IMG/VR virus record: IMGVR_UViG_3300020057_000086
Coordinates: 1 to 37,493 of that record
DNA: 37,493 nucleotides
Reading direction: 5' to 3' (one strand)
DNA from: a virus
The notes beneath the pieces were generated by a model. It was not told the origin of the DNA, made no database searches, and saw only the letters and a list, made by a program, of their open reading frames with translations. The translations under genes were made by a program, and so were the position numbers. Shown piece by piece: positions 4,352-36,750 of the stretch. The stretch's first letter is position 1. The number at the start of each line of letters is the position of its first letter.

Positions 4352-5617
4352 ATGGAAACAAACCTAACGGTCGAGCAAGTACCAATCGAAGAACTAAAGC
4401 CAGCTGACTACAATCCACGCAAGTGGACAGACAGCGCGAGAAAGGGACTCACTGAGTCGCTAGATCAATTCGGTTTTATACAACCGATAGTCGCCAACAG
4501 CGCACCGGCCCGAAAGGGAATAATTATAGGAGGCAACTTCAAACTAGACATCGCCAAGAAAAAGGGGATGAAGACCGTACCGGTGGTATGGGTAAACATC
4601 CCGGACATCGCAAAAGAAAAAGAGCTCAACCTCCGCCTGAATAAAAATCAGGGAGAATTTGATAACGAACTGCTCTCAGAATTTGATGAAGAACTGCTCC
4701 GAAAAGTGGGGTGGGAAAGTAAAGAACTTGACAAGATCTTTAATGAAGACGGAGAGGACGACTTTGACGGAGACAAGGAGGCAGGAGCGATAGTAACGCC
4801 TGTGTCGAAGCAGGGCGAGCTGTACGAGCTGGGGAGGCATAGACTGATGTGTGGGGACAGCTCAAACCCTGACGACGTAAAGAAGCTCACGGGGGGGGGT
4901 ATGGCAGATATGGTCTTCACGGATCCACCTTATAATGTCAACTACTCCGGACGAGGAAAGAACACCAGTAACAAAATCAAAAACGACAATATGGACGAGG
5001 AGAACTTTCGAGTAATGCTCTTAGCGTGGTTTAAAAATTATCACACATACCTAAAAGAGAATGGCGCACTTTATACTTGCTACGCATCAAGAACACATCG
5101 AGAGTTTGAAGATGCACTCAATGATGCCGGATTTGACGTACGTAACCAAATCATATGGGTCAAGAAAGTGGCGAGCATGGGATGGGGCGACTACCGATGG
5201 AAACATGAGCCGATACTTTACTGTCACAAAAAAGACGCAAAGCTGAATTTTTACGGAGACCGGAAGCAATACACCGAGTGGTCAGAAGAAATGAGTGACG
5301 AAGAACTCCTGAAGATGGTCAAGAAAAACATCACCAAAGAGGAGGAGGGCGACTCAACTGTGTGGCGCCTGCACCGCGAACAGAAATATGATCACCCAAC
5401 TCAAAAGCCAATCAAGCTGGTGACAATAGCAATACGGAACTCTAGTAAGCGAGACGACGTGATACTAGATTTGTTCGGTGGAAGTGGGTCGACTTTAATC
5501 GCAGCAGATCAGATAACGCGGACGGCATGGCTCATGGAACTGGATCCAAGATACGTGGACGTTATAATTAAACGCTGGGAAAAAGCAACCGGTGAAAAAG
5601 CAAAAAAACTTAATTAA
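4352..5617 (+). CDS. ParB-like domain / beta-class DNA N4- or N6-methyltransferase fusion, 421 aa
   Basis: Residues about 5-85 match the ParB/sulfiredoxin-like domain often fused to phage methyltransferases (PADYNPR, GFIQPIV, IIIGGN). Residues about 155-415 are a SAM-dependent DNA methyltransferase. The catalytic DPPY motif (191-194) comes first and the SAM-binding FGGSGS (375-380) last, which is the beta-class order. The target-recognition region lies between them. DPPY enzymes methylate the exocyclic amine of adenine or cytosine; the sequence recognised cannot be read here. Likely roles are protection from host restriction or marking DNA for replication or packaging. A 9-G tract lies just upstream of the DPPY codons. 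No restriction nuclease is adjacent. A terminator follows. Confidence 0.9.
   Translation: METNLTVEQVPIEELKPADYNPRKWTDSARKGLTESLDQFGFIQPIVANSAPARKGIIIGGNFKLDIAKKKGMKTVPVVWVNIPDIAKEKELNLRLNKNQGEFDNELLSEFDEELLRKVGWESKELDKIFNEDGEDDFDGDKEAGAIVTPVSKQGELYELGRHRLMCGDSSNPDDVKKLTGGGMADMVFTDPPYNVNYSGRGKNTSNKIKNDNMDEENFRVMLLAWFKNYHTYLKENGALYTCYASRTHREFEDALNDAGFDVRNQIIWVKKVASMGWGDYRWKHEPILYCHKKDAKLNFYGDRKQYTEWSEEMSDEELLKMVKKNITKEEEGDSTVWRLHREQKYDHPTQKPIKLVTIAIRNSSKRDDVILDLFGGSGSTLIAADQITRTAWLMELDPRYVDVIIKRWEKATGEKAKKLN
4891..4899 (+). repeat. Poly-G tract (G9) inside the methyltransferase gene
   Basis: Nine consecutive G residues encode the end of Thr180 and Gly181-183, eight codons before the catalytic DPPY. 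A change of one or two G would shift the frame before the catalytic motif and abolish the enzyme. Tracts like this are typical slipped-strand phase-variation sites. Confidence 0.8.
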
Positions 5618-28460: not shown

Positions 28461-30521
28461 ATGGAAAATGAAAAATTACAAGAAGGGATAGAACAGTTTT
28501 ATGACAACTATAACGGTGCTTCGGATCTAAGAACAGAGGAAGAGAAAGCCAAAGATTTTAATCAAGAAGAATTTGTAGCTGGTATTTCTCCTATTGACTG
28601 GATAGAAAAGTCACCTGAAAAATGGAGAAGTTTCCCAGAGCTTAATCAATTTTATACACTGAAATGCTTTCCATCATCAATCAATATTTTGATGGATTCC
28701 TTGAAATCTAAGAAAATAAAAGATGTTGTAGTCGGAGATATTGTTATGACCCATAATGGTAACAAGAAACAAGTAACAAAAACCTTTAGGAGAAAGTGGC
28801 AAGGAACTATGGAATCAATAAAGGTTAAGGGTTTGATTGATAAAATAGAATGTACACAAGAACATCCAATATTTGCAATAAAAACAATTAAAAAACAAGC
28901 AAAACCATATAACGAAGAAGCTAGGTTTTATGAAGCAAAAGAACTAACTAAAGATGACTGGGTTTCAGTTCCCATAAGTAGAGAAGTAAGAGACACTACT
29001 ATAAATTCAATAGAAAAGAATCCTGAATTTTTATGGATATTAGGTTTATATATGGCAGAGGGATGTATCAACTCTACAGACAGAAGTTCTATAACTTTTG
29101 GATTACATCAAAAAGAAACTGATTACTATGAAAGAATAAAAACATTTTTTAATAAAACTGGAGTAAATGTTAACTGTTATACATCCCCAAAACATAAAGG
29201 AATGTCTGTTAATGTTTACAGTAAGTATTGGGCTGAATTATTATCAGAATTGGGTGGCGAAAAATGCGACAAAAAGAAAATAAATCATCGCTTAATGTTT
29301 CTTGAGCCAATACTGCAAATGCAAATAGTTAAGGGTATAATTGATGGAGACGGTAGTACTTTGACAAAAAGTACTGTCTTAGTAAGTACATCATTTGAGA
29401 TGATTAAACAAGTCCAATTTCTCTTAATGAGAAATAATGTATTTTCATTTCTAAATAAAAGAAAAGATGAAAAAGGGAAAAAACCTGTTTGGACACTAGA
29501 ATTTAGTAAAGGATCTCACTCTTCTTTTTTAAGAGGTGATACTTTTTTTGTAAAAATACAAAACAAAGAAAGCATTAAAGGATTCACAGGTGGGTATGTT
29601 TACAACTTTGAAGTAGAAGATGATAACTCTTACATAGCAAATGGTGTTGGTGTTCACAATTGTGTTAGCTTCACTACCGCTAAATTAGCTCTTATTAGTC
29701 TATGGTTAAAGACAAAAGAAACACTGAGGTTTAGCCCTAATTCTATTTATAAGTATCGTTCAAACAGTCCGAGTGGCGGAATGATAGGCGATGATGCTTT
29801 TGGAATTTGGAAAGATAAAGGAATATCGCTAGATATAGTGTGTAAGAGTAATCAAGTGCAAGAGGGAGACCCTTATGAAATATCTAATTTTGCTAAAGCA
29901 GTGGCTCAAGGTTTTAAACTAGGAGGCTATATCACTATCACAGAAAAAGATTTTGATAGGGTAGCCTCTACAATTCAAACCACAGGCAAGGGAATAATGG
30001 TGTGGTTCTACTTTACTTCAAGGGAATGGAGTCTAGAAATACCTAGGGTTATAGACAATTTAACTAACCCTTATTTAAGTCAAGCATCAAGGCACTCAGT
30101 AACTGCTGTGGACTATGGTCTAAAAGATGGAGTAGAGGTTCTAAAAATAGAGGACTCTGCGTGGTTTGGAGGTAGAAATGTCCGATACATAACCAGAGAA
30201 TTCTTTAAATCTAGAAACTTCTTGATTAAATACCCGATGAACTTCGAGTACGAAGATCCTCAAGCAACTCCTGTAACACCACCTGTAACACCACCTGCAA
30301 ACTTTATATTCACTGAAACAATGAAATTCGGTTCTAGGGGCGAGCAGGTAAGGCAACTTCAAATAAGATTGAAAGCACTAGGATTTTTCCCTTCTAATAT
30401 AAATACCACAGGTTACTTTGGGAATATAACAAAGGCATCTGTAATAAAATTCCAACTATCACGCAATCTTGTCGGAGATGGCGTAGTTGGAAAGTTCACA
30501 CTTAAAGAACTTAATATGTAA
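28461..30521 (+). CDS. Papain-like (C1/C39-type) endolysin interrupted by an intein, with a C-terminal PG-binding domain, 686 aa precursor
   Basis: Before splicing the product is 686 residues; removing the 332-residue intein leaves about 354. The N-extein ends with PELNQFYTLK and the C-extein begins C401-VSFTTAKLAL: Q then C is the papain-like oxyanion Gln and catalytic Cys. A conserved histidine (RHSVTAVDYG) and EDSAWFGG complete the triad region. After a TPVTPPVTPP linker, residues about 620-686 are a peptidoglycan-binding domain (GSRGEQVRQLQIRLKALGFF). It should cleave peptide bonds in peptidoglycan at lysis. The catalytic Cys doubles as the +1 residue of the intein. Confidence 0.85.
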   Translation: MENEKLQEGIEQFYDNYNGASDLRTEEEKAKDFNQEEFVAGISPIDWIEKSPEKWRSFPELNQFYTLKCFPSSINILMDSLKSKKIKDVVVGDIVMTHNGNKKQVTKTFRRKWQGTMESIKVKGLIDKIECTQEHPIFAIKTIKKQAKPYNEEARFYEAKELTKDDWVSVPISREVRDTTINSIEKNPEFLWILGLYMAEGCINSTDRSSITFGLHQKETDYYERIKTFFNKTGVNVNCYTSPKHKGMSVNVYSKYWAELLSELGGEKCDKKKINHRLMFLEPILQMQIVKGIIDGDGSTLTKSTVLVSTSFEMIKQVQFLLMRNNVFSFLNKRKDEKGKKPVWTLEFSKGSHSSFLRGDTFFVKIQNKESIKGFTGGYVYNFEVEDDNSYIANGVGVHNCVSFTTAKLALISLWLKTKETLRFSPNSIYKYRSNSPSGGMIGDDAFGIWKDKGISLDIVCKSNQVQEGDPYEISNFAKAVAQGFKLGGYITITEKDFDRVASTIQTTGKGIMVWFYFTSREWSLEIPRVIDNLTNPYLSQASRHSVTAVDYGLKDGVEVLKIEDSAWFGGRNVRYITREFFKSRNFLIKYPMNFEYEDPQATPVTPPVTPPANFIFTETMKFGSRGEQVRQLQIRLKALGFFPSNINTTGYFGNITKASVIKFQLSRNLVGDGVVGKFTLKELNM
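28665..29660 (+). mobile_element. Intein with LAGLIDADG homing endonuclease
   Basis: Begins at Cys69 (block A: CFPSSINILM) and contains block B (ECTQEHPIFAI). Endonuclease helices LWILGLYMAEG and VKGIIDGDGS follow, and the element ends with VYNFEVEDDNSYIANGVGVHN before Cys401. Terminal His-Asn and the following Cys are the splicing residues. The element is 996 bp and in frame. Base composition is AT-rich. Confidence 0.92.
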
Positions 30522-30561
30522 AAAAGTCGGGAGCATTATTAGAATTAAATAAATAAAAACA

Positions 30562-30876
30562 ATGACAACATTTAAAAGATCATGGAATTGGATACTGCTG
30601 TCCTCACAAGACGCAAGTAAATTATCACTTATGATCAAAGGGGTGCTCCTTGGAGTACTACCAGCAGTCGTGGCGTTTGCTGGATTGGTAAACGTACAAC
30701 TCGACAGTGCCGCACTAGAACAGACTGTGGAATTAGTTTCACAAATTGTTCTATACGTCGGTGGAGCGATCAGTGCGCTAGTGACAGCTTACGGATTGAT
30801 TAGAAAGATATTGACTTCTGCTACGGGGACAAACGACGTGGTGGCAGGATGGAAGTACGAAGACGACGAGGGATAA
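30562..30876 (+). CDS. Putative holin, 104 aa
   Basis: Two hydrophobic segments (residues about 23-43, MIKGVLLGVLPAVVAFAGLV; about 58-80, LVSQIVLYVGGAISALVTAYGLI) with a short polar loop and a charged C-terminal tail fit a small two-helix holin. It lies directly after the endolysin gene, the usual place. The leader is A-rich with no Shine-Dalgarno. Confidence 0.7.
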   Translation: MTTFKRSWNWILLSSQDASKLSLMIKGVLLGVLPAVVAFAGLVNVQLDSAALEQTVELVSQIVLYVGGAISALVTAYGLIRKILTSATGTNDVVAGWKYEDDEG

Positions 30877-30888
30877 TAAAATATATCG

Positions 30889-30990
30889 GGAGCGCCACGC
30901 TGTCTATAAAACTATTTTTGGCGTCGTGTTGCCGCCTTTTGATAGGGAGTATCATACTTATGATTCTCTTTATGGACAGCATAGCGCTCC
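30889..30990 (+). ncRNA. Three-way-junction structured RNA
   Basis: Outer stem: 30889-30910 pairs with 30969-30990 (22 nt, 19 Watson-Crick pairs, one G-U pair and two C-A mismatches). It encloses two arms with almost no linkers: 30912-30945 (CTAT/ATAG and GGCG/CGCC around a loop) and 30947-30968 (GAG-T-ATCAT, loop ACTT, ATGAT-T-CTC). A terminator follows 13 bases later. No family is recognised. Whether it is a free RNA or a 3' element of the holin transcript is unknown. Confidence 0.7.
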
Positions 30991-31002
30991 GGAGGCAAAA
31001 CC

Positions 31003-31027
31003 AAGCCCTAGAATAAGGGGCTTTTTT
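31003..31027 (+). terminator. Rho-independent terminator
   Basis: AAGCCC (31003-31008) pairs with GGGCTT (31018-31023), followed by a run of T (to 31027). It ends the lysis transcript and the structured RNA upstream of it. The next promoter follows directly. Confidence 0.8.
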
Positions 31028-31037
31028 GCTGTCTGAG

Positions 31038-31092
31038 TTATCCACTTGTTTGCTTGTTAAGAATTGACAAGGATTGATAAGGGGGGTAAACT
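31038..31092 (+). promoter_or_regulatory. Box-promoter cassette 2
   Basis: TTATCCACT (31038-31046) lies 17 bp before -35 TTGACA (31064-31069), which is 17 bp from -10 TAAACT (31087-31092). The core AAGAATTGACAAG is shared with three other cassettes; here the box is moved 10 bp further upstream, about one helical turn. Transcription would start near 31099, ahead of the gene at 31143. Confidence 0.7.
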
Positions 31093-31781: not shown

Positions 31782-32430
31782 AAGAGAGGCAGTCAACCAA
31801 AAGCTGGAGGATATTGAGGAGGGTGTGATAAAGCTCAAATGCTTACCACGAAAGCCACCAGCTCAAGACCACTCATGGCGTAGGAGTATTAGCAACGAGC
31901 AGTGGAAAAAAAAAGGAAGGATAATGGCATGCGAAAATGGTAGAATTAAAGCATGGGACACACACCCACAAACAATGAAAAAAACAATAAAGCTAGTCAT
32001 ACTAGCAGGGGTAGTAGCATTACTTTTATCATTAAGTATTTACAACACAGCAGAGTCAGTGATTGTCTATGAGAAAGTCGAAGTTGTAAAAGAAGTAGTC
32101 AAAAAAGATCCACTCTCCTATCAACAAAGGGCATGGCTCGGAGCGCTGACATGGTGCGAGAGCACAGGTAATCCAAAGGCCGTCAACCAAAAGGACGCGG
32201 ATGGCACGCCAAGCTATGGGCTCCTACAATTCAAGCCCGGCACGTTTTACGGCTACGCCAAAATATACGGCATAGACGCAAGTAAAGGGTACATGGATCC
32301 CGACACACAGCTAGCAATCGTTGAGCAAATGATTATCCGAGGAGGGATCAAATGGAGCCAACAGTTTCCAGCATGCACGAAGAAACTCGGCAAACCACCG
32401 GTATCCACTCCAAGAATTGACAAGAAGTAA
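31768..32430 (+). CDS. Membrane-anchored lytic transglycosylase-like protein, 220 aa
   Basis: Residues about 70-95 (MKKTIKLVILAGVVALLLSLSIY) form a signal-anchor. The C-terminal half matches the transglycosylase fold: WLGALTWCESTGNPKAVNQ with the catalytic Glu, then DGTPSYGLLQFKPGTFYGYA. It should cleave glycan strands of peptidoglycan. An ATG at 31975 (Met70) would start exactly at the signal-anchor and is a good alternative start. The last residues (STPRIDKK) are encoded by a promoter cassette that overlaps the gene end. Confidence 0.75.
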   Translation: MGQIKREAVNQKLEDIEEGVIKLKCLPRKPPAQDHSWRRSISNEQWKKKGRIMACENGRIKAWDTHPQTMKKTIKLVILAGVVALLLSLSIYNTAESVIVYEKVEVVKEVVKKDPLSYQQRAWLGALTWCESTGNPKAVNQKDADGTPSYGLLQFKPGTFYGYAKIYGIDASKGYMDPDTQLAIVEQMIIRGGIKWSQQFPACTKKLGKPPVSTPRIDKK

Positions 32431-32444
32431 TAAGGGTATATAAT
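32401..32444 (+). promoter_or_regulatory. Box-promoter cassette 3 (overlaps the end of the transglycosylase gene)
   Basis: GTATCCACT (32401-32409, one change from the box) lies 7 bp before -35 TTGACA (32417-32422), 16 bp from a perfect -10 TATAAT (32439-32444). The gene at 32452 starts 8 bases after the -10, so its message may be leaderless. The first part is also coding sequence for the transglycosylase C-terminus. Confidence 0.75.
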
Positions 32445-32700: not shown

Positions 32701-32952
32701 ATGGAAAAAGCAACACACACATCAAAAAAGCTCAGACTAGTAGCACTGCTCTTGTGCTGGTTTTTAGGCATGCTAGGAGTGCATAGATTTTATGTAGGAA
32801 AGACCAGCACAGGAATCGCCATGCTCTTGATAACTCTAACCTTTTTTGGAATGATAGTAACAGGCATATGGGTATTGGTAGACATGATAATCATTGCATC
32901 AGGATCATTCACAGACAAGGACGGTGCAGTTTTAGAGAAATGGTCGAATTAA
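32701..32952 (+). CDS. TM2-domain membrane protein, 83 aa
   Basis: Two membrane segments (about 11-30 and 37-65) with the TM2 signature: LLCWFLGMLGVHRFYVGKTSTGIAMLL and a following WVLVDMIIIASG. TM2 proteins occur in many bacteria and eukaryotes; phage versions are uncommon and without known function. Here it lies in the recombination operon, two genes before RecT. No partner is evident. Confidence 0.8.
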   Translation: MEKATHTSKKLRLVALLLCWFLGMLGVHRFYVGKTSTGIAMLLITLTFFGMIVTGIWVLVDMIIIASGSFTDKDGAVLEKWSN

Positions 32953-32972: not shown

Positions 32973-33313
32973 ATGTCAACACAAAAATCACTAGAAAAAT
33001 ACACCAAAGCGTTCGAAGCACTAGAAGACTATAAGCAAAAACACCTCGCAGTATTTGACGGACACCAAACTCTCGTGCTTGCAATAATAGAATAGATGCA
33101 GAGAATGAACTCCGAGACGACGTAGCAGAAGCAGGAATTGGAATAGAAAACAACGACTTCAAAGTAACCGTAACTCCACAGACACAGACATTCGCTGACG
33201 TGGAAGCGATCGACAAACTGGTCAAGGACAAACTCATAAGCCCGGAGATACGTGCGAAGATAGTACAAACCAACCAACGCCCTCCGAAGATCAGCATCAA
33301 AAGAAAAGAATAA
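32973..33313 (+). pseudogene. Frameshifted gene (5-bp duplication), about 112 aa if repaired
   Basis: The first frame (32973-33095) gives 40 residues, MSTQKSLEKYTKAFEALEDY ... VLAIIE, and stops. A second frame continues to 33313 with DAENELRDDVAEAGIGIENNDFKVTVTPQ and a basic end. The break lies at a perfect tandem AATAG duplication (33086-33090, 33091-33095). Removing one copy restores one open frame through LAIIDAENELRDD. The intact protein would be a helical phage protein of unknown function directly upstream of RecT. Confidence 0.7.
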
Positions 33314-33346
33314 GTCGAATTTATTAAAAAATTAATAGCAACACAT

Positions 33347-34210
33347 ATGGAAAATACACACGTTACAACCAATCAAAACAAAAGACCACCAGTACCAATA
33401 GAAATACTACGCGCAAACATGGAGGGAGAATTTATAAAGACGGTCACTAATTACTACCGAGGCAATGAGCAAGAAGCTCTAGCATTTAAAACCGCAGCAG
33501 TCGACTACGTACGCAAAGTACCAAAGCTCCTAGATTGCGATCGCATATCACTCCTTTCTGCATTCGTGCAAGTTGCGTCCTTTAGATTTATGCCAAGCGG
33601 AGTCTCAGGCGAAGCGTACATAATACCCTACGGACGAGAAGCCAAGATGCAACTCGGCTATCAAGGAATCATTACTCTGCTATGGCGCACTGGCAAGGTC
33701 AAAAGTATCTCAGCGATTATAGTCTACGACAACGAACACTTCGAATATACCGAGGGCTTGGAGACACATTTAGAACACATCCCAACCAAATTCGGAGAGA
33801 AGAAAGGGCTACCGATCGGAGTCTACGCAGTAGCTCAGACGACAACCGGAGGACGAGTATTCAAAGTCATGAGCAAGGAAGACATCATGGACTTCAAAGA
33901 ACTCTCCAAAGCCAAGGCAACCAAGGACTCACCATGGAATAGCGATAAGGATCCGGAACTATGGATGTGGAAGAAGACCTGCCTATTACAGATGGCAAAA
34001 CTCCTACCGAAGACCATGGAGCTACAGAAAGCTATCGAGGTGGACAATGACGGAGAGGGACTAGAGAAGACACGGGTCGACGCAGGGGGCTCAGCAGTAG
34101 GAAAGAGCTTCCACACACCAGCGACAGACGTGATACCTGAAGACGAGTCGAATGGCGATGATGGCTTTGTGCCACCGGAGAATCCAGACGAGGAAGAAGA
34201 CATGAGATAA
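33347..34210 (+). CDS. recT: RecT-family single-strand annealing protein, 287 aa
   Basis: Residues about 25-235 fit the RecT family: FIKTVTNYYRGNEQEALAFKTAAVDYVRKVPKLLDCDRISLLSAFVQVASFRFMPSGVSGEAYIIPYGREAKMQLGYQGIITLLWRTGKVKSI, then VFKVMSKEDIM and LWMWKKTCLLQMAKLLP. The C-terminus is acidic. RecT anneals complementary single strands after a 5'-3' exonuclease has exposed them. Its usual partner, RecE or another PD-(D/E)XK exonuclease, is missing as a free gene, but a nuclease domain is present in the nearby fusion at 34636. Confidence 0.9.
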   Translation: MENTHVTTNQNKRPPVPIEILRANMEGEFIKTVTNYYRGNEQEALAFKTAAVDYVRKVPKLLDCDRISLLSAFVQVASFRFMPSGVSGEAYIIPYGREAKMQLGYQGIITLLWRTGKVKSISAIIVYDNEHFEYTEGLETHLEHIPTKFGEKKGLPIGVYAVAQTTTGGRVFKVMSKEDIMDFKELSKAKATKDSPWNSDKDPELWMWKKTCLLQMAKLLPKTMELQKAIEVDNDGEGLEKTRVDAGGSAVGKSFHTPATDVIPEDESNGDDGFVPPENPDEEEDMR

Positions 34211-34400: not shown

Positions 34401-34586
34401 ATGATAGAAGCAAAGGAAATAACCGAAGACAGGATCAATGAGATGTTTATAGATTTGATCCACTTTAAGATGGGTTTGTATCCTTTTTTTAAAAAGTACG
34501 GCATAGGCATTCAGACTGGAGCAGAGCTAAAGAAACACTTCCAAAAGATGCTGAAGTTATCCACTCCAAGAATTGACAAGGGTTAA
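34401..34586 (+). CDS. Small protein whose C-terminus is encoded by a promoter cassette, 61 aa
   Basis: Starts immediately after the previous stop. The first 50 residues are helical (DRINEMFIDLIHFKMGLYPFFKKYGIGIQTGAELKKHFQKM). The end, LSTPRIDKG, and the stop codon come from the box-promoter cassette at 34557. The same STPRIDK peptide ends the transglycosylase gene, for the same reason. No domain is recognised. Confidence 0.55.
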   Translation: MIEAKEITEDRINEMFIDLIHFKMGLYPFFKKYGIGIQTGAELKKHFQKMLKLSTPRIDKG

Positions 34587-34600
34587 TAAGAGAGTAAAAT
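34557..34600 (+). promoter_or_regulatory. Box-promoter cassette 4
   Basis: TTATCCACT (34557-34565), 7 bp, -35 TTGACA (34573-34578), 16 bp, -10 TAAAAT (34595-34600). Identical over 54 bp to cassette 1. It drives the nuclease-motor gene at 34636, with a short AT-rich leader. Confidence 0.75.
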
Positions 34601-34635
34601 GTAGATATTACTAGAAATTATTAAAAATTATTAAA

Positions 34636-36750
34636 ATGGATAACAACACACCAAAAGAAGAAGTCAAAAGCATACACATGCCTATTAATAAACTGTCCTA
34701 CTCAGGACTCACCCAGCTACTTCGTAACCCTCTGATCTTCAAGCTCAAACAGATCCTCGGAGTGTACGACTCCAAGATGGGAGTGAGTGCAATGATAGGG
34801 AGATCGGGCCACGAAGCCCTAAAATTTTACTACGGAGGTAATAAAGACCTACCAGTACCAGCAGACATCATAGAGCGCAGAGAAGAAGCAATCAAGGTCG
34901 GCATGGACTACCTGAACACTGTCGATGATGGATGGATAAAATACGGGAAGACCGGGAGCCGAGAGAGCATGTTGCAGGATTACCATAAAACCATGCGTCT
35001 CTACTTTGAATACGAGCCAACCTACCGGAACATCACATGCTGTGAGGAGCGCCTAGAGGCAGAGATAAAAAACCACGACGGGCAAGTGTTCCCACTTCCA
35101 GCAGTCGGAGTGCCGGATTTAATAAACGAATACGAGGAGGGCAAATACGAAATAGTGGATGCCAAATTCACAAAGAGCTTCACGAACTACACCAACGACG
35201 ACGGAGAGCCATACGAAGACTACGTCAAAATCATACAGGCGAAGTTCCTAGACTACCTAGTGAAAGCCACCAAGGACATCCAAGCGACTAGGGTGGTTTT
35301 TAGAGAAATCAAAAGGAGCATAAACAAAGACGGAAGCCCACAGATCCGAGACTACGTGATACCACTAGACCATGAGCCATATGATATTATTTTCACAAAC
35401 TTATACGCTGACGTTGTAAAATTTGTAAGCAACCCAAACAGCATATACCTACCAAACCTAAGCGATCCATTCGACGGAGAGCAAGCCGGACTCCTATATG
35501 CGCAGGGGTTATTGAATGCGGATATGAGCGACATTGAGGTGATGCACAAAGTAAAAGATGTGGCATTGGTAAGTCGAAAGTTTGTCTCAAGCCGACTAGA
35601 TAAAATAGAAAACCAATACCTCGCACCTGAAGAAAAGATAAAACTCCGAATGGCAGAATTCGGAATACCGATCGAGCCGGTAGAGACTAAGGTGGGAGCG
35701 AGCGTAACACAGTACCGATTTAAAGTGAGCGCCGGCATATCAATGAATAGATTTAAAAAACACAAAGATGACATAGCACGTGCGATAGAAGCAAAGACAG
35801 ATATCAGGATACTAGCACCGATCCCCGGAACGTCGCTTATAGGCATAGAGGTGCCGACCGCAGATCGCAAAATAATACACCTAGAAAAGAAGCACCTGAC
35901 ACCAAAGACTCTAATGCTACCGATTGGAGTAGACATACACGGAGAGGTAGTAAGGATAGCACTCAACGAGATGCCACACTTGCTGATCGCAGGATCAACC
36001 GGAAGCGGAAAAAGCATACTGCTCCACACCATTATAACCGCACTAAAGAAGCAAATGACACCAAGCCAAATGGAGATGGTGCTGATAGACCCGAAGCGAG
36101 TAGAACTGGTGGCATTTAAAAACATCCCACATCTCAAAGGTAAAAAAATAATATACGAATACACTGGAGCTACTAAGGCCCTCGCAACCTTGGTAGAAGA
36201 AATGGAGCGACGCTACGAGGTGCTGGAAAAACAAGCAGTACGAGACATCGGAGAATATCACAAAAAAATATCAGGAGGAATGCCCTACATCGTGGTAGTG
36301 ATTGACGAATTCGCTGACCTTATGATGCAGAGCAAACAAACTGAAAAACAAAAGAAAGGTAAAGGCGCGCTGAAGAAAATCGCAAATAAAAAGTTTGTAG
36401 AAGAATTCGCAAAGCAGGAAGCAAAACGAGGGCGCCAAGTAAACCTAGAGGAGCTAGATACTACTGAAGACTTAGCGGTGGACGAAATGATAATACGGCT
36501 AGCACAGATGGCGAGAGCGGTCGGTATCCACATGATCATAGCAACCCAACGCCCAAGCGTGGATGTGATTACTGGATTAATTAAAGCCAACTTCCCAACA
36601 CGAATAGCACTGACAACGGCATCGCATGTCGATAGCGAAGTTATTATTGGAGAGTCAGGAGCAGAGAAGCTGACAGGCAAAGGGGATATGCTACTGATGC
36701 ATCCCGGTGCAAGTGGAAAACAGAGATTGCAAGGTTTTCTAATTAAATAA
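34636..36750 (+). CDS. PD-(D/E)XK nuclease fused to an FtsK/SpoIIIE-type DNA translocase lacking the gamma domain, 704 aa
   Basis: Residues about 18-230 resemble the PDDEXK_1 (Cas4/RecB-like) nuclease: LSYSGLTQLLRNP, IGRSGHE (H59, E60), then VGVPD161LI, D175-A-K177 (EIVDAKF) and Q201. Residues about 335-420 match the FtsK alpha domain (VTQYRFKVSAGISMNRF, RILAPIPGTSLIGIEVP). The beta motor follows with Walker A GSTGSGKS (453-460), MVLIDPKRVELVAF, Walker B VVVIDEFADLM (553-563) and ATQRPSVDVITG. The protein ends at the end of the motor; the gamma (DNA-recognition) domain is absent. The gene lies near RecT and has its own box-promoter. A motor-driven exonuclease partner of RecT, or a nuclease guided along DNA, are possible roles. 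Confidence 0.85.
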   Translation: MDNNTPKEEVKSIHMPINKLSYSGLTQLLRNPLIFKLKQILGVYDSKMGVSAMIGRSGHEALKFYYGGNKDLPVPADIIERREEAIKVGMDYLNTVDDGWIKYGKTGSRESMLQDYHKTMRLYFEYEPTYRNITCCEERLEAEIKNHDGQVFPLPAVGVPDLINEYEEGKYEIVDAKFTKSFTNYTNDDGEPYEDYVKIIQAKFLDYLVKATKDIQATRVVFREIKRSINKDGSPQIRDYVIPLDHEPYDIIFTNLYADVVKFVSNPNSIYLPNLSDPFDGEQAGLLYAQGLLNADMSDIEVMHKVKDVALVSRKFVSSRLDKIENQYLAPEEKIKLRMAEFGIPIEPVETKVGASVTQYRFKVSAGISMNRFKKHKDDIARAIEAKTDIRILAPIPGTSLIGIEVPTADRKIIHLEKKHLTPKTLMLPIGVDIHGEVVRIALNEMPHLLIAGSTGSGKSILLHTIITALKKQMTPSQMEMVLIDPKRVELVAFKNIPHLKGKKIIYEYTGATKALATLVEEMERRYEVLEKQAVRDIGEYHKKISGGMPYIVVVIDEFADLMMQSKQTEKQKKGKGALKKIANKKFVEEFAKQEAKRGRQVNLEELDTTEDLAVDEMIIRLAQMARAVGIHMIIATQRPSVDVITGLIKANFPTRIALTTASHVDSEVIIGESGAEKLTGKGDMLLMHPGASGKQRLQGFLIK

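Follow-up and report, generated by a model that had tools for sequence, protein, structure and literature searches.

The late lysis operon of an uncultured phage appears to end in a small RNA directed against the early recombination genes of the same genome. In the window, i.e., the whole 37,493-nucleotide stretch analyzed here (IMG/VR virus record IMGVR_UViG_3300020057_000086), a structured element in the 3′ UTR of a holin-like gene presents, in the apical loop of one of its hairpins, a short sequence complementary to the translation start of recT, and loop and target change together among related phages. We regard this element as a 3′-UTR-derived, trans-acting antisense sRNA of about 100–140 nt that represses the early orfX-recT genes, with a probability of roughly 0.77; judging from sequence, the late RNA probably pairs with the orfX-recT messages and turns them off.

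The record likely represents a circularly permuted genome, because the near-identical record L004 joins the end of the window to its start with ~270 extra bases. Its genes run in one direction from the structural genes via an intein-containing endolysin to the holin-like gene (30562–30876, plus strand), an ORF that closes the late/lysis operon and has relatives in L016 and L038 by position and weak similarity. The RNA is followed by an intrinsic terminator (31003–31027, plus; hairpin 31003–31023 and T run), the probable 3′ end of both RNA and late transcript, and then by a TTATCCAC box and a promoter for the early genes that follow, TTGACA-17-TAAACT (31038–31092, plus). Further downstream, a consensus promoter (TTGACA-16-TATAAT, 32417–32444, plus) precedes g32452, a TM2-domain gene (32701–32952, plus), the orfX region (32973–33346, plus), recT (33347–34210, plus), which encodes a single-strand annealing protein (RecT match 7.2e-32), and an FtsK-PDDEXK fusion. 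Besides this gene order, several features of the locus deserve mention. The endolysin-like protein (28461–30521), with a peptidoglycan-binding C-terminus, is split by an intein with a LAGLIDADG domain, and a near-identical copy occurs in IMGVR_UViG_3300015360_000302. The fusion gene (34636–36750) joins a PD-(D/E)XK nuclease domain to FtsK/SpoIIIE and is kept in relatives. The orfX frame appears shifted at ~33083–33110 (near 33090) compared with the near-identical record L002, which may be real or an assembly error. The plus-strand promoters at 1580, 31064, 32417 and 34573 have TTGACAAGNNNTNATAAG in common (0.01 expected by chance), most of the four with a TTATCCAC-like box upstream, and GAYAAG-type hexamers are repeated in the spacer; these hexamers, with variants in L059 and L062, suggest a co-evolving operator. 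Two of these early promoters form 63-bp repeats (1562–1624 and 34555–34617) that are 95% identical.

The 139 nt from the outer stem to the end of the terminator fold with −55.9 kcal/mol, compared with −35.4 ± 3.7 for dinucleotide-shuffled sequence (z = −5.5; 0 of 200 as stable), and within the record only a G-rich coding repeat forms a more stable 110-nt window. A sequence-only reading had proposed this comparison and had described a 22-nt outer stem enclosing two hairpins with one-base linkers, followed by a strong terminator. The stability beyond chance and the terminator were borne out. Each arm of the outer stem measures 21 nt, or 22 with one extra A-U pair, but the stem is interrupted: P1a (30889–30895 with 30984–30990, 7 bp) and P1b (30899–30909 with 30970–30980, 11 bp) are separated by a conserved 3x3 internal loop, with CAC (30896–30898) opposite AUA (30981–30983), so that the 3′ arms and their side of the loop occupy 30970–30990. 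Hairpins P2 (~30912–30945) and P3 (~30946–30968) do follow each other in the window, with linkers of 0–2 nt, but this arrangement is not universal, as L018 lacks P3, a plain hairpin. P2 contains a U-rich internal loop and carries the putative antisense seed GUGUUGC (30926–30932) in its apical loop, which is predicted to be mostly unpaired, with the exception of one base. The sequence-only reading did not include the role proposed here for this loop, that of a seed acting antisense to the recT operon of the same phage; its statement that the RNA belongs to no recognized family agrees with a search of the Rfam 15 covariance models, including Phage_pRNA, which gave no match, the sole hit being Trp_leader with 17.6 bits, well short of the cut-off of 41. 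This hit, found at relaxed thresholds, was discarded as driven by the terminator. An overlapping ORF (30849–31016) has no Pfam match and was judged non-coding because the fold covaries. A poly(A)-binding ENE-type triple helix formed by the U-rich loop was rejected since L038 is devoid of the 5′ U run and the 3′ runs of L018 and L036 are short, and a pseudoknot between the loop and a downstream GGCAA (~30994–30998) since it was, by eye, not conserved.

Relatives were sought with the terminase, g32452, RecT and FtsK proteins and with the core pattern of the element. The element occupies the same position in seven uncultured phages that are related yet diverged, namely the window, L016 (3520–3623), L018 (~10358–10265, minus strand), L036 (4322–4424), L038 (4309–4411), L059 (3224–3322) and L062 (2433–2523); the last was missed by the covariance model and was included on the basis of position, stem geometry (17–18 of 18 pairs) and seed. 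In these phages the gene in holin position is followed by the RNA, the terminator, a TTATCCMC box and a promoter. RecT identity to the window is ~44–65% in the relatives, and the 5′ arms are on average 42% identical, yet the stem of 7 bp, 3x3 loop and 11 bp and an apical loop fitting the target are constant, enclosing one or more hairpins. Across the seven phages 123 of 126 cells of the outer stem are paired, with 36 double changes, and 16 of the 18 pairs have changed on both sides. In a five-sequence alignment 88.6% of cells pair, compared with 72.5% in shuffled and ~40% in slid controls, and 21 pairs show two-sided change versus 8.3 in shuffles (0 of 500). Compensatory changes, whose absence from homologs the sequence-only reading would have counted against the structure, are thus abundant. 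Outside the internal loop G-U pairs are favored over A-C (12 versus 2), in keeping with an RNA made from the plus strand; the covariance model likewise scores 104 bits on the plus and 32 bits on the minus strand of the window.

The RNA was not found in L041, L042 and L058, and in L041 and L042 the terminator alone occupies its position; as phages without the RNA exist, it is not essential. L044 contains other long hairpins between the gene in holin position and the terminator (5190–5370) that are devoid of the seed loop and may represent a diverged or different late RNA. Pattern matches in L020–L022, L024–L027, L029–L034, L049–L051 and L053–L056 were rejected because their folds are unlike the element; the match in L027 was judged to be coding on the other strand, and the remaining ones were taken as chance without full follow-up. 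Among these, L030 (2341) and L031 (5779) are AT-rich contigs with a similar pattern match and no matching fold seen, and around the L030 match there are no ORFs of 60 aa.

A search of each phage for sequences complementary to its P2 loop led to the recT start, the main predicted target, which was picked after five phages had been viewed. In the window the seed pairs over 7 nt with GCAACACAUAUG at the recT start, where GCAACAC (33338–33344) lies just 5′ of the start codon. Other loops fit their own recT start: UCGUUGCUCA is complementary to AUGAGCAACGA in L036 (10 nt), GUUGCUCGG to AUGACCGAGCAAC in L018 (9 nt), GUUGCUC to AUGAGCAAC in L016 (7 nt), GGUAUUGC to GCAAUACCAUG in L059 (8 nt), and UCCUGUUU to AAACAGGA at recT codons 4–6 in L062 (8 nt). 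By inspection, the pairing in L036 can be extended, with a single mismatch, to ~18 pairs (GUUUUUUGG-C-UCGUUGCUCA with UGAGCAACGA-A-CCAAAAAAU). L038 pairs over 6 nt at recT and 8 nt at the preceding small gene, orfX, whose start also fits the loops of L018 (13 nt), L059 (8 nt), L036 (7 nt), L016 and L062 (6 nt each). In the window orfX (start ATG at 32973) offers 6 nt only, CAACAC at 32977–32982, and the TM2-domain gene a putative target GCAACAC in codons 4–6 (32710–32716). In most phages the pairing site overlaps the start codon or directly adjoins it. In L041, L042 and L058 no GCAAC-type site was seen by eye within −20 to +20 of recT; L042 carries GTTGC, with a score of 8 for the L062 loop. 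The recT of IMGVR_UViG_3300032562_000168, a record missing a part, starts with AUGGCAGAGCAACC. In one phage (L135, ~18903 and ~18952; L136, 2924 and 3261) the 8-mer GCAATACC is situated 5′ of several starts, endolysin included, far above chance.

The fit between each loop and its own target exceeds that obtained with exchanged or randomized partners. For recT, 8 of 5040 permutations of the loops reach the observed sum, and for orfX and recT combined the phages' own arrangement outscores all 719 swaps (720 arrangements in total), at 103 compared with 64 ± 3.2 for shuffled targets (0 of 3000). The held-out L059 and L062, which were looked at once the idea had arisen, agree (p ~0.006), and using one phage per loop type yields p values of 1e-5 to 1e-3, although the phages are related, so that the tests are not fully independent, and ORF calling was simple. 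The short seeds at recT in the window (7 nt) and L038 (6 nt) are not significant alone. When interaction energy is weighted by accessibility, recT ranks 2/48, 2/46, 1/44, 2/55, 1/30, 3/23 and 1/37 among the gene starts of the respective phages, while, if accessibility is left out, the duplex energy of the whole inner region is conspicuous in L036 only.

These data bear on how specific the loop is. It might mimic a general ribosome-entry motif and act on many phage or host messages, which we consider unlikely, if the least so of the alternatives: the L059 seed 8-mer precedes five ATGs, that of the endolysin included, and the TM2, ftsK and endolysin starts fit the loop in some phages, but in a comparison of 23 gene families recT ranks first and orfX second, and recT alone is clearly significant across phages. 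The distribution of the L059 8-mer nevertheless means that the target set may be broader than orfX-recT. The direction of the effect is a separate question, as the RNA might raise or protect expression of the early mRNAs, or act in cis on read-through transcripts bearing both. RNA and recT indeed lie on the same strand, ~2.3 kb apart in the window without overlap, and repression is deduced from the position of the sites; pairing at or beside a start codon, however, usually blocks initiation, and a terminator separates the RNA from its targets, which makes activation or cis action rather improbable.

A function restricted to the 3′ end of the message, with the stem shielding the late mRNA from exonucleases or serving as an RNase III site, in the manner of lambda sib or the T7 sites, and no target in trans, appears slightly more doubtful still. 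It would suit a long interrupted stem immediately 5′ of a terminator whose geometry is better conserved than its interior. It accounts neither for the covariation of loop and target across phages nor for the near constancy of the GUUGC-containing loop and its U-rich flanks in L016, L018 and L036 at only ~45–65% protein identity, and the stability element suggested by the sequence-only reading is therefore not the main function. That the inverted repeat acts as DNA, i.e., as a replication origin, recombination site or operator beside the DnaA-box-like TTATCCAC, is highly improbable: its arms are palindromic and TTATCCMC follows the terminator, but the excess of G-U over A-C and the covariance model favor one strand, L017 and L042 retain the box without the repeat, and the loop-target fit would be left unexplained.

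Under the preferred antisense reading, the RNA would be made as part of the late transcript once transcription has run through the lysis cassette, and would be freed by RNase III, to which the stem length seems suited, or another nuclease, or else act as the mRNA 3′ end. The seed would then pair with the ribosome-entry region of the orfX-recT mRNA and block translation, the simplest sign of action given the location of the paired sites on or next to start codons. Early recombination functions would thereby be shut down late in infection, when, with the lysis genes transcribed, recombination may be unneeded or interfere with packaging. No promoter-like site was detected on the plus strand from 29215 to 31064, although weak promoters may be missed. 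Together with the terminator and the conserved structure, this supports the kind of molecule that the sequence-only reading had suggested, a free small RNA from the lysis transcript, while we infer its release, as we do transcription with the late genes, pairing in the cell and repression. Whether the end of the lysis transcript itself silences the early recombination operon in this uncultured lineage, as a late-to-early RNA switch whose seed co-evolves with its targets, is in our estimate an even bet. If so, these phages, for which no cultured relative was found, would possess a timing device that needs no protein regulator, and mRNA targets of sRNAs could be read from loop/start-codon covariation in metagenomes.

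The host lineage is possibly Patescibacteria, a hint from sequence rather than an assignment: the only relative of g32452 in genome_contigs adjoins obgE in a Taylorbacteria MAG, and 2 of 380 Patescibacteria genomes contain a g32452 relative. The RNA model and the terminase found no match in 380 Patescibacteria genomes, and INPHARED contained no terminase relative and only distant RecT matches.

Phi29 pRNA (RF00044) is a phage three-way-junction RNA of similar size, but the present RNA has no Rfam match, its phages encode a large terminase-like protein, and its loops match mRNAs instead of each other. Lambda sib and the T7 RNase III sites are processing sites without a target-matching loop; they resemble the present RNA in having a long stem with an internal loop near the 3′ end and differ from it in that its loop matches targets. 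In sib-type retroregulation the structure forms only on terminator read-through, whereas here the element (30889–30990) lies wholly 5′ of the terminator. As in phage trans-acting base-pairing sRNAs, of which few with a conserved seed-target pair are known, a conserved structured RNA is encoded apart from its target, and a seed complementary to the target's translation start is kept by covariation. The lack of a visible promoter of its own and the terminator shared with the mRNA fit 3′-UTR-derived sRNAs, which are well known in bacteria and include RsaC, freed by RNase III (PMC9438474). Like these, the present RNA forms a terminator-ended mRNA 3′ end and is proposed to regulate other mRNAs via a short seed; unlike them, it is phage-encoded, with a conserved long closing stem, a seed in a hairpin loop, presumed maturation and no known chaperone. 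Our literature search for a late lysis 3′ UTR sRNA acting on a phage's own early genes found none, and neither does the consulted part of a review of phage sRNAs, which lists sar, OOP, aQ, PreS, VpdS and others, contain a late 3′ UTR RNA acting on early genes (PMC12197685). According to the same review, sar of P22 (68/69 nt) blocks the antirepressor translation start, and OOP of lambda (77 nt, with its own promoter pO) acts on cII through RNase III (PMC12197685). The RNA described here shares with sar and OOP that a phage-encoded small RNA pairs with a phage mRNA, but it is derived from a late-operon 3′ UTR, is not cis-antisense, and is predicted to target early recombination genes.
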